This document shows, piece by piece, positions 10,200 through 36,395 of a stretch of 36,395 nt of DNA. Origin of the DNA: Candidatus Poribacteria bacterium (GTDB lineage: Bacteria; Poribacteria; WGA-4E; WGA-3G); NCBI GenBank assembly GCA_022822085.1, contig JAJECK010000038.1, positions 1 to 36,395 of the forward strand. Direction: 5' to 3'. A program made the translations under genes and the position numbers. The notes beneath the pieces are model-generated. The model worked only from the letters and a program-made list of their open reading frames with translations, was not told the DNA's origin and did not search any database. Positions within the stretch are counted from its first letter, which is position 1, and each line of letters opens with the position of its first letter.

Positions 10200-10934
10200 T
10201 TAATTTGATTCAACAACGCGGGGTCTACCTCCAATAGATGGTGGTAAAAGCATACGTTTTTGTTGTTCTGTCAAATCACCGTATGTGCTAATGTCATAAT
10301 AATTGCCAGACCAAGCTGAATGACCTGGGCTATATTTATAGAGGAGGGCGCGACGTTGGTGTCCGAGTTGCCAAGGCATAGTTCCATGAACAAGTGCTTC
10401 AGTAAAAAATAGCACATCTCCTGGTTCAAGAGCCGGTTGAATAACATAATGTGTTGGCCGTTGAAAATTGCGAACTTCTGGTGGAATTTCTCTCAAAAAA
10501 TTACTCTTGTGACTTCCCGGTATACATGCAAATCCACCTGCGCCTTCTGGTGCTTCTGTGAGATTATATGTCATCACACATAAACCATTTCGCATGATTC
10601 CATCACGATATTTATACCAATGGTCGCCTTCTGGTCCACCGGGACTACCGCCGTCTTCACCACCGTGGAGTCCACCCCGTCCCTGCCCACCATTCATAAT
10701 AATAGGATAGTCGTGATCAAGTCGGACGTTAGGACCTAACATTTCAATCAGATAAGGAAGTATTGTCGGATGGTCAATGAGGTGCCTGAATATTTCTCCC
10801 CATTGACTTTGAGGTCCCTGCATTTCACCTTTATCAATAAACTCGTTCATTTGCGCCACTTCGTCGTCAGTTAAGACATCTTTTATAATAAGATAGCCTT
10901 CAAGGTCTACCTTGAATTTTTCTTCTCCTGTCAT
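10200..10934 (-). CDS. Phytanoyl-CoA dioxygenase family protein, copy 1
   Basis: 244-residue Fe(II)/2-oxoglutarate dioxygenase of the PhyH family. RGGLHGGEDGG carries the first iron-ligand histidine and an acidic residue, GDVLFFTEALVHGTMPW the distal histidine, and the arginine-rich HQRRALLYKYSPGH the likely 2-oxoglutarate site. MTYNLTEAPEGAGGFACIPGSHKSN is the typical PhyH core. It is the downstream member of a tandem pair of equal length; the substrate is unknown and hydroxylation of phytanoyl-CoA should not be assumed. Confidence 0.9.
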   Translation of the reverse strand: MTGEEKFKVDLEGYLIIKDVLTDDEVAQMNEFIDKGEMQGPQSQWGEIFRHLIDHPTILPYLIEMLGPNVRLDHDYPIIMNGGQGRGGLHGGEDGGSPGGPEGDHWYKYRDGIMRNGLCVMTYNLTEAPEGAGGFACIPGSHKSNFLREIPPEVRNFQRPTHYVIQPALEPGDVLFFTEALVHGTMPWQLGHQRRALLYKYSPGHSAWSGNYYDISTYGDLTEQQKRMLLPPSIGGRPRVVESN

Positions 10935-11030: not shown

Positions 11031-11765
11031 TCATTTCGTATCAACAACTGGTGGTCTTTTACCGATGGAGGGTGGTAAAAGTAAACGTTTCTGTTGTTCA
11101 GTCAACTCAGGATATTTGCTTATGTCGTAATAATTACTTGACCATGATGAATGTCCTGGACTATATTTGTATAGCAATGCGCGTCGTTGATGATCTGCTT
11201 TCCAAGGCATTGTTCCGTGGACAAGTGCTTCGGTGAAAAACAGAACATCACCTGCTTCAAGTGCTGGTTGGACGACATAATGAACAGAACGTTCAAAACT
11301 TCGGACATCTCTCGGTATTTCTGGTGCGAAATTACTTTTGTGACTTGCGGGTATACATGCGAATCCGCCAGCTCCTTCAGGAGCATCGGCGAGGTTGTAT
11401 GTCATTACACACAGTCCATTTCGTATTACACCATCTCGATATTTATACCAATGATCACCCACGTTCCCGCGTGCATGCCCGCCATTTTCACCACCGTGCA
11501 ATCCACCTCTTTTTTCACCTTTATTCATAATAATTGCATAATCGTGATCTAAACGGACATACGGACCAAGTAGTTCTATCAGGTAAGGCAATATTTTGGG
11601 ATGATCCATTAGGTCTTTGAATGTTTCACTCCAAAGACTGGGACGCCTGTCCATTTCACCTTTGTCGATAAAAGAGTTCATTTCAGCGACTTCATTGTCA
11701 GTTAAAACATTCTTTATCACCAGATATCCGTCAAGGTCTACTTGAAATTTCTCTTCACCTGTCAT
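11031..11765 (-). CDS. Phytanoyl-CoA dioxygenase family protein, copy 2
   Basis: 244 residues, the same length as the neighbouring copy and highly similar along the whole chain (MTGEEKF start, PEGAGGFACIP, GDVLFFTEALVHGTMPW, RRALLYKYSPGHS). The iron-ligand residues are kept: LHGGENGG here against LHGGEDGG in copy 1. Differences cluster in the loops before and after the glycine-rich segment, and the C-termini diverge, suggesting tandem duplication with some specialisation. A consensus promoter lies about 90 bases upstream; copy 1 follows after 96 bases. Confidence 0.9.
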   Translation of the reverse strand: MTGEEKFQVDLDGYLVIKNVLTDNEVAEMNSFIDKGEMDRRPSLWSETFKDLMDHPKILPYLIELLGPYVRLDHDYAIIMNKGEKRGGLHGGENGGHARGNVGDHWYKYRDGVIRNGLCVMTYNLADAPEGAGGFACIPASHKSNFAPEIPRDVRSFERSVHYVVQPALEAGDVLFFTEALVHGTMPWKADHQRRALLYKYSPGHSSWSSNYYDISKYPELTEQQKRLLLPPSIGKRPPVVDTK

Positions 11766-34292: not shown

Positions 34293-35125
34293 TTAATATA
34301 CTGGAATTGCTATCCATCCCCAACTACCTTCAACAAAAATAAGGTTCAGAGGTGGGGGGACGTAATTTACATTGCCAGGATCATGTGTCGAACTACTTCC
34401 TTTAACTACTTCTTCTCCAGAATCTATCGTTTGCATGCCAAACTTGAAGTCGTTTACCCTTGCACTTTTTCTTGCCCGTGACGAACCTAATACCTTAGCT
34501 ATCTGAACCTCAGAAACATCCACGGGAGTGTCAACGTTACCAGTTACCTCTACCCTGTCAATTTGCACGTAGATCCCCCCAGAGAAGTTAATCTCGCTTC
34601 CTACTCCCCCAAATAACCCAGCGGAGCATCCAAAGAAAATTTAATATCTGGATTGGATCTTATTTTTACTTCACCCCTTGCCCATGCCCGCGTTCCAACA
34701 ACTACTTTTGCACGAAGATCACCGGTGGAATATCTTTCTTTCCCGGGAATGGTAATTTTTTCGTGATACTTTGAAGACCACCATTTCAATCTATATTCAG
34801 TACATTTCTCTCTCCGCGCTTTAGCATTTACATATCCTTTCCAGGCATGTGTTTCTGTGAAATCATTTAATCCATCAATTGATGGAGTGACAGAAGCTGT
34901 AGCACTACCAAGTCCAGCATGCAGATATCCAGACAGACTCCAACCCCGGCCAGATTCATCTATCTTGAAATTAACATCTAAAGATTTGATCTTAGAACTA
35001 GCCCAACTTCCATCTGACCACGAAGCACATATTCCATCGGTAATTGGAATAAAAATGAGACCTGCTAATGCTATAATGGATAAGCAAGCAAGTGTCATAG
35101 TAATCACCAGTTTTCTGTAACGCAT
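34293..35125 (-). pseudogene. Exported protein of unknown function broken by one frameshift
   Basis: The first frame (35125-34601, 174 residues) starts after a strong AAGGAG and has a signal (KLVITMTLACLSIIALAGLIFIPITDGICAS). It ends LGYLGE at a TAG. One extra G in the G5 run at 34606-34610 would continue it as LGYLGGVGSEINFSGGIYVQ into the second frame, RVEVTGNVDTPVDVSEVQIAKVLGSS...WGWIAIPVY, ending at 34293 and giving 277 residues. The two parts have the same beta-rich, Ser/Gly-rich character. No family recognised. As with the nuclease, a sequencing error is a real alternative. Confidence 0.65.
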
Positions 35126-35226: not shown

Positions 35227-35808
35227 TCAAGATTTTCCAAAGAGGAAAAGGTTATTGCATCCGAATCCCCAACGTTCTCTTTTCACAAGTTGCCAACGTT
35301 TGAAAATATCTGGAAGACATTCAGGATCAAATCCATAGTGTTGATACAGTGAGAATCCCTCAACTATCCTGAACTTTTTGAGAAGATCCAAAAGACCATC
35401 CACACGTGGATGAGGCACTGTAATAATCACGTGTCCACCCGGTTTGAGGTAATCCCAACATACATTTGCGACTTCTGGCAGTCTGTCCATCGGGATATGT
35501 TCAACAGTCGCCAACATCGTAATGACATCAAAGGTTCTGTCTTCGGAGAAGTCTTTCGGAAAGTCGCCTTTCACCAGACGGTAATCCTTGAATTCAACAG
35601 ATTGGGTTAAATTTGCTTCGATACCTACACCGGAATGGATATGTCCGTTGAGGGATCGTAGGAATGCACCGTCTCCCGCGCCTATATCTAAGAGGGATGC
35701 CCCTTGTGGGATATGCGGTTTTGCCTTCGCGAATCGCAGCGATTCAAGAAAGCGGTCTACGGGTGTTCTCGGAAATTCCTCAAATTTACCGTTGTGTGAA
35801 CCTTTCAT
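35227..35808 (-). CDS. SAM-dependent methyltransferase
   Basis: 193 residues of the class I Rossmann methyltransferase fold. Motif I is ASLLDIGAGDGAFLRSL, an acidic residue after GVGIEAN binds ribose, and FDVITMLATVEHIP and LKPGGHVIITVPHPR are motifs IV-VI of the UbiE/Methyltransf_11 type. Target unknown; the YQHYGFDPECLPDIF C-terminal segment is also seen in lipid or glycan-cluster methyltransferases, but that is weak. AAAGGA before ATG 35808; candidate promoter upstream. Confidence 0.88.
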   Translation of the reverse strand: MKGSHNGKFEEFPRTPVDRFLESLRFAKAKPHIPQGASLLDIGAGDGAFLRSLNGHIHSGVGIEANLTQSVEFKDYRLVKGDFPKDFSEDRTFDVITMLATVEHIPMDRLPEVANVCWDYLKPGGHVIITVPHPRVDGLLDLLKKFRIVEGFSLYQHYGFDPECLPDIFKRWQLVKRERWGFGCNNLFLFGKS

Positions 35809-35847
35809 GTCTTCCTTTATTTAACAACAATAACAGGAGACGTGGAT

Positions 35848-35876
35848 ATAGTATCACGTTCTTCTGTTATTTTCAA
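35848..35876 (-). promoter_or_regulatory. Candidate promoter for the methyltransferase
   Basis: Minus strand: TTGAAA (35876-35871), 17-base spacer, TACTAT (35853-35848), about 40 bases before the ATG. Confidence 0.45.
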
Positions 35877-35922
35877 ACAAAAAAGTTGCATCACTTGTCC
35901 CCAAAATGTGTGATGTAACAAC

Positions 35923-35953
35923 AAAAGCCCGCGATGAAATATATCGTGCGGGC
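35923..35953 (-). terminator. Intrinsic terminator of the short unit
   Basis: Minus strand: GCCCGC...GCGGGC (35953-35948/35932-35927) with an extra GAT/ATC pairing and then TTTTGTTG. A second hairpin, TATCGCAG/CTGCGATA (35961-35986), precedes it. Confidence 0.7.
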
Positions 35954-36007
35954 ACAAAAATATCGCAGCATAGAATTCCTGCGATAAGACCTTGTAATAT
36001 GAACAAA

Positions 36008-36136
36008 TTAACGAATGTGAAGTGGGGGGGGGGGGGGTATTAACTTATAGTTAAAATGGAGCATAGAAACGTCATGAACGTCCGACGCGGACATTTTCTG
36101 AAACTGAATTGCGGTGTTTGCATGTCGCTGTTTCAT
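36008..36136 (-). CDS. Short ORF with a five-proline run encoded by a homopolymer
   Basis: 42 codons starting MKQRHANTAIQFQKMSASDV, then SMLHFNYKLI-PPPPP-LHIR and a stop. GGAG sits 7 bases before the ATG and a consensus promoter lies 100 bases upstream, so the start is well supported. The prolines come from a 14-base tract (36024-36037, C on the coding strand). Changing the tract by one base would open either other frame for 50-70 more codons. IQFQKMSASDVHDVSMLH faintly resembles the start of a GNAT acetyltransferase. It could be a small protein, a leader peptide or a gene truncated at the tract. Confidence 0.45.
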   Translation of the reverse strand: MKQRHANTAIQFQKMSASDVHDVSMLHFNYKLIPPPPPLHIR

Positions 36137-36240
36137 CTCAAGTCTCCACATTCGAATAATATTGACATTAACATCATTTATAAGTCAATAAAACGCATAA
36201 AAGTGTGAAACTATCCATGTCTAAAATGATGTGTTTATAT

Positions 36241-36270
36241 ATTATAAAACATAATATGGATGTTTGTCAA
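36241..36270 (-). promoter_or_regulatory. Strong consensus promoter of the short unit
   Basis: Minus strand: TTGACA (36270-36265), 18-base spacer, TATAAT (36246-36241). Both hexamers are perfect; transcription would start near 36234. Confidence 0.8.
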
Positions 36271-36395
36271 ATAAAATTTACAAAAAAATGCAAAATTCTG
36301 TCTTTTTTCATGTGGGAGGGGGTTTTAACCTCGATTTTATCACATTATTATAACGACTTGTGTTAGGTAACTAATTGTTTTATTCACAGTTATTG

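Follow-up and report, generated by a model that had tools for sequence, protein, structure and literature searches.

A poly-C leader as a putative phase-variable transcription attenuator ahead of exported-protein genes in Candidatus Poribacteria

We propose that a leader block located upstream of a methyltransferase gene in a 36,395-nt stretch of a Candidatus Poribacteria genome (hereafter, the window) is a phase-variable transcription attenuator, a reading to which we assign a probability of about 0.72. According to the proposed mechanism, a strong and probably constitutive promoter would start a transcript whose first ORF encodes a leader peptide of ~40 codons entering a poly-C tract, and this tract would be expected to gain or lose C residues by slipped-strand mispairing. 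In the closed frame, translation would end typically 13–16 nt past the tract, roughly 20–30 nt before the first of the hairpins, which would then form, with hairpin 2 and its U-rich tail, aided by hairpin 3, terminating transcription (OFF). With translation in a remaining, open frame (one or two per copy), the ribosome would follow RNA polymerase through the hairpins and block the terminator (ON), leading to transcription of the downstream gene, usually one for an exported protein. Tract length would set leader length, and only long leaders would let ribosomes melt the terminator. The assembled window allele, with 14 C residues, is predicted to be OFF. In-population slippage, termination and ribosome-dependent read-through are the inferred parts of this mechanism. 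Tract-length phase variation was one of four options offered in an earlier note on this DNA, and it is the best supported of them, with the amendment that no gene continues in another frame; instead, what is switched would be a leader peptide, and its length would determine if the terminator forms.

The leader block and its target gene all lie on the minus strand of the window (Table 1). The elements described in the earlier note (a perfect promoter, a good ribosome-binding site, a 42-codon ORF with a 14-base C tract and five prolines, and hairpins ending in a U-tract upstream of a methyltransferase) were all present, the hairpins being three in number, with U-rich tails on the second and third. 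The leader peptide, MKQRHANTAIQFQKMSASDVHDVSMLHFNYKLIPPPPPLHIR, starts at the ATG at position 36136, and a second in-frame ATG lies upstream at 36151. Hairpin 2 is followed by CUUUUGUUGUU, an imperfect U-tract, and the frame entered with one additional C terminates at a TAA ~8 nt ahead of the methyltransferase ATG. We consider the block to be more than a chance arrangement, given its repetition in the genome, the enrichment of its promoter class among the copies and the covariation of hairpins 1 and 2. Elsewhere in the window, two adjacent similar genes (MTGEEKF...; 10200–10934 and 11031–11765, minus strand) are probably a tandem duplication.

Table 1. Positions of the leader block elements and downstream genes in the window.
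Feature	Position	Strand	Evidence or remark
Promoter module	36157..36325	-	Repeated elsewhere in own genome, also without tract
Sigma-70 promoter TTGACA-18-TATAAT, 12/12	36241..36270	-	Consensus score
Shine-Dalgarno GGAG of leader ORF	36142..36145	-	Sequence; similar purine-rich stretch in copies
Leader ORF, 42 codons	36008..36136	-	Ends 5' of hairpins in assembled C14 allele
Conserved palindromic stretch around TTAACTATAAGTTAA	36038..36054	-	Directly 5' of tract
C14 homopolymer tract	36024..36037	-	C4–C17 in copies
Frame open through all hairpins with tract +1 C or -2 C	35817..36023	-	Open-frame length 204
Second frame, open through hairpins 1–3 with tract -1 C or +2 C	35854..36023	-	Length 167
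Hairpin 1	35961..35986	-	-11.4 kcal/mol, z -4.6; covariation
Hairpin 2 with U-rich tail, terminator-like	35917..35953 (stem 35953-35927)	-	-12.6 kcal/mol, z -1.8; covariation
Hairpin 3 with U-run	35880..35915 (stem 35915-35889)	-	-6.4 kcal/mol
Target gene 1, class-I SAM methyltransferase	35227..35808	-	PF13489, E 7e-15
Next gene, exported protein (MRYRKLVITMTLACLSIIALAGLIF...)	34601..35125	-	Sequence

The frame arrangement that the attenuator reading depends on was examined in 67 model-found copies, which supersede a first statistic on 51 BLAST-found copies; a C run of at least 4 and an ORF open to the tract were the entry conditions, and the downstream frames were unselected. In all 67 copies, which are related so that the counts are not independent, one frame stops no more than 40 nt after the tract and at least one other is open beyond hairpin 2, with two frames open beyond it in 44. 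Dinucleotide shuffles of the same segments would be expected to give 34 and 7, respectively, and the reverse strand of the same segment gave 9 and 0, while a downstream control stretch gave 29 and 6 of 67 and an upstream one 12 and 0 of 65. The same arrangement was found in 25/25 representatives below 75% identity and in 7/7 below 65%, and at least one open frame also passes hairpin 3 in 61/67 copies. A TAA within CGTTAAT typically provides the closed-frame stop, at +13 to +16 and a median of 21 nt before hairpin 1. Column-resampling for stop avoidance within the hairpins gave only a weak signal (1.32 vs. 1.55 ± 0.11). Of 70 leader ORFs counted as assembled, three of them with a tract of only 3 C, 39 terminate ahead of the hairpins, 29 extend through them and 2 end within.

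Throughout the 67 copies, whose subfamilies differ in length, the leader ORF has a start codon, usually a purine-rich Shine-Dalgarno sequence, and a frame open to the tract. The leader N-termini are alike (M-x-N/Q-R-...) and the remainder is divergent. A dN/dS of 0.67 (206 pairs) indicates weak protein constraint, with the frame kept and the peptide sequence kept loosely, which fits a leader but does not prove translation; the same value ruled out a conserved functional small protein. The palindromic stretch around TTAACTATAAGTTAA is conserved though the reading frame across it differs between copies, and its function may therefore lie at the DNA or RNA level, conceivably in slippage. Another way to read such a leader, also among the options of the earlier note, is as a ribosome-stalling one responding to polyproline and EF-P or to proline supply, where the pause at the prolines and not the length of the tract controls the hairpins. 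A run of C encodes proline whichever frame is read, and in closed alleles the stop comes soon after the prolines, but copies L016, L061, L064 and L086 keep the architecture with one or two prolines or an interrupted tract, and the targets are not proline-related. Stalling also leaves unexplained why a CCC homopolymer is kept over mixed proline codons and why open frames run past the terminator. We regard stalling as an unlikely primary control; with proline in every frame it is possible as a modifier, although it is not the best-supported option.

Support for a role of the block at the RNA level comes from the covariation of hairpins 1 and 2. In the alignment of copies, 93.9% of cells are paired, dropping to 31–51% when the pairing is slid, and both-side changes occur in 8 of 17 pairs (3.4 in shuffles) and in 20 cells (4.6 in shuffles). 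Outside these counts, changes in hairpin 3 also look compensatory in the first alignment (GCATTGGA/TTCAATGC and GCATTGGGG/CCCGATGC). Across copies, the hairpin-2 region has a median local MFE of -17.1 kcal/mol and its tail a median of 8 U in 11 positions. An Rfam search of the block gave nothing above chance, the best match being RsaA at 17.5 bits against a gathering score of 50 (E 2.5). Poly-C is the classical ligand of Rho, and the closed stop directly after the tract would suit a Rho-dependent attenuator, where leader translation covers or uncovers a rut-like site formed by the C tract and the hairpins have a secondary part. The covarying hairpins with U-rich tails suggest intrinsic termination instead, and we consider Rho control improbable, keeping in mind that it would remain tract- and translation-dependent. 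Polyproline stalling and a role of Rho are compatible with the attenuator as modifiers, or else stand as its rivals.

The leader recurs across the genus, with multiple copies in a genome, and is sparser in the wider family. BLAST returned 37 matches to all or parts of the block in its own genome and matches to the ORF-tract-hairpin module in many species of the genus. A covariance model (R1) built from 31 copies was run on 60 genomes with strict filters, so that the counts are lower bounds; it matched in 13/18 genus genomes, including the window's own, with 1 to 17 matches per genome, and in 12/18 genomes of sister genera within the family, with 1 to 3 each, and it gave no match in 24 genomes outside the family. 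In a GTDB pattern scan the carriers were Candidatus Poribacteria plus one record titled Betaproteobacteria (L107, VGIC01000022.1), with a single exact match of the hairpin-2 pattern GCGGGCTTTTGTTGTTGCATYG, for which chance, a mislabelled bin or transfer are all conceivable; viral contigs scanned with the hairpin pattern gave no match. We examined 87 distinct hairpin matches, 67 of them with ORF and C tract, and in the copies the elements follow one another in the order promoter, leader ORF, C tract (C4–C17), hairpins and then gene. The block falls into two separate modules, one with the promoter and one with ORF, tract and hairpins, which lie at least ~110 bp apart in many copies. Promoters scoring at least 11/12 lie within 300 nt of the ORF in 33/65 copies, with 0.6 expected, an enrichment that fits constitutive initiation with control exerted after initiation. 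Many copies have a second conserved block of ~90 bases (AATGTTAAGGTTTATCTGG...GCACAAG) between the promoter and the leader. The promoter module also stands alone at many genome sites (L018, L021, L022, L029, L031 and L034), often some hundred bases upstream of exported-protein genes, and several contigs, including that of the window, end at these block repeats.

Such recurrence could also be produced by a dispersed or MITE-like repeat, or by the remains of a gene family, without any part in regulation, and both the solitary promoter modules and the ~94–95% identity between window positions 35849–36395 and contig C143 (L009, G000:C143:300-847) over ~547 bp, ahead of a different downstream gene, are in keeping with this. 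Nevertheless, an inverted-repeat search of the block found none, thus no MITE terminal inverted repeats; copies below 65% identity keep the ORF, tract, hairpins and co-oriented gene; the hairpins covary; and random orientation of the copies relative to genes was not seen. A passive repeat is, in our judgement, scarcely probable.

The first gene with a Shine-Dalgarno sequence after the hairpins has an exported or membrane N-terminus in 68/74 cases, compared with 11/32 control genes of the window, as called by a crude hydropathy test of the hydrophobic N-terminus. Three of the six non-exported targets are methyltransferase orthologues in three species; those at L067 and L042 also follow the same kind of leader, and two of the three were seen with an exported-protein gene next, as in the window, where that gene is probably in the same operon as the methyltransferase. 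A Pfam scan of 30 targets assigned Laminin_G_3 to seven, while an eighth, weaker match did not reach the curated cut-off; cadherin was assigned to two, and NPCBM and a 3-keto-disaccharide hydrolase domain to one each. LTD matched below cut-off, and most other scanned targets were without a family. A proline biosynthetic attenuator was discarded as a candidate, for among LamG, cadherin, NPCBM, exported unknowns and methyltransferase none makes or imports proline. The earlier note had also considered a small RNA with a decoy ORF, in which the terminated transcript would be the product, and closed alleles would indeed yield a transcript of ~300–350 nt ending in hairpins. This option is weakened by the co-orientation of the block ahead of a gene with a Shine-Dalgarno sequence in 74 copies, nearly all of them, as well as by an ORF that stays open in subfamilies of different length and by the lack of an Rfam match above chance, and we hold it to be highly improbable.

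Tract length varies between loci and species, from C4 to C17, and reaches at least C9 in 48/67 copies. The remaining 19 have fewer than nine C and a tract is missing altogether from some copies, hence not every copy can be a fast switch. Genome G004 allows a comparison within the MKNRQTNHHLEI subfamily: the ORF measures 118 nt up to the tract in all tabulated copies, while the tract ranges from C10 to C13 and the state differs. Among sites with at least nine C, 9/11 in the window's own genome (G000) and 6/7 in the single-contig genome G010 are such leaders; the two others in G000 are L152 and L151, described below. The leader architecture was absent at six sampled C-run sites of G044, from another family of the order. 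Long C runs in these genomes thus sit where frame switching would matter; the raw count of C ≥ 9 runs per genome is about that of a rough composition estimate, and what is unusual is where these runs lie and that lengths of 13–17 occur among them. Homopolymers of 14 are error-prone, N runs occur at or beside the tract in two copies (L078 and L161) and part of the tract-length variation may be assembly error, leaving exact lengths uncertain, but C tracts turn up at the same architectural position at dozens of loci and, with C ≥ 9, in many genomes, one of them a one-contig chromosome, which leads us to reject the assembly artefact suggested earlier as the origin of the tract.

Relatives do not carry a full gene with a normal sequence at the tract, an outcome that the earlier note had held against its own reading; they have the same short ORF, mostly with a C tract. 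Two loci, L152 (G000:C32:18900-21800) and L173 (G017:C101), do encode orthologous secreted proteins (...ALTILYSGEEHGQL...) that begin with a leader-like ORF carrying a C13 and C9 tract, respectively, fused in frame across the tract and without hairpins. These would be a translational version of the switch. At L151 (G000:C17:18400-21300), a C tract splits an N6_N4_Mtase-type DNA methylase gene into two frames, and genes of the same type are likewise split at L166 and L172 (G007); with tracts of C9–C11, these are candidate phase-variable DNA methylation genes in Poribacteria.

The closest known system is Pil1/Pil3 of Streptococcus gallolyticus, where the number of GCAGA repeats alters the length of a leader peptide whose stop lies tens of bp before the terminator in the low state and within or beyond it in the high states; translation through the terminator raises transcription, and the system was tested with mutants and with flow cytometry (Danne et al. 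2014, PMC3894217). Both systems have a promoter, a ribosome-binding site, a leader ORF with a simple-sequence repeat and a stem-loop terminator, with the stops of frames other than the off frame lying near, inside or past it, and the Pil target, too, is a surface structure. At the sequence level, the Poribacteria leaders show a promoter and short ORF with a ribosome-binding site, a repeat inside the ORF, closed and open frames in 67/67 copies and a stem-loop with a U-tract before the target, and it is because they have each anatomical feature of the Pil1 system, with poly-C replacing GCAGA, that we favor the phase-variable attenuator. No sequence homology is claimed. Pil1/Pil3 concerns GCAGA pentamers and two pilus operons in a firmicute, whereas the Poribacteria leaders have poly-C, two or three tandem hairpins and dozens of loci with unrelated exported proteins in an uncultured phylum, with evidence at the sequence level.

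In attenuation of the pyrBI type, a ribosome close behind the polymerase prevents formation of the terminator hairpin; there the signal is a pyrimidine-dependent polymerase pause, whereas here it would be the genetically set length of the leader. Homopolymer contingency genes of Neisseria and Campylobacter, phase-variable DNA methylases among them, carry poly-C/G in their coding regions. They have in common with the leaders that a homopolymer sets the reading frame, but in them the gene itself is frameshifted, while in Poribacteria the tract lies in a separate leader ORF and the effect would be on transcription; the same Poribacteria genomes hold C tracts in the N6_N4_Mtase-type genes described above as well. 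Stalling leaders of the TnaC/MgtL type are short ORFs with prolines near the end, located before a terminator or Rho-sensitive region. In contrast to these, the Poribacteria leaders have no conserved arrest peptide, and their C-terminal residues vary with frame and copy.

The type of mechanism is thus already known, and what would be new is its form with poly-C, its spread over many loci as a regulon, its exported targets and its phylum. In the open-access literature, to which our search was confined and where absence is no proof, we found no description of a poly-C form, of such a regulon with exported, host-facing-type targets or of its occurrence in this phylum, and no paper on phase variation in Poribacteria. 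Within the literature found, leader-length phase variation has been demonstrated for two pilus loci of one bacterium (PMC3894217).

Cumulatively, we judge the odds to be slightly in favor of a genome-wide stochastic switchboard in this uncultured sponge-associated lineage, in which poly-C attenuators, as many as a dozen or more in a genome and independent of one another, would each randomly turn on or off a different protein of exported, host-facing type (LamG lectins, cadherins and carbohydrate-binding proteins), so that one clone would present combinatorial surfaces to its host. If true, leader-length phase variation would be a general control of exported proteins in a whole bacterial family. 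The leaders provide a handle for annotating the regulon and make surface diversification of sponge symbionts within a clonal population testable without culture, as existing sponge metagenomes and metatranscriptomes could show tract-length spectra and tract-linked expression.
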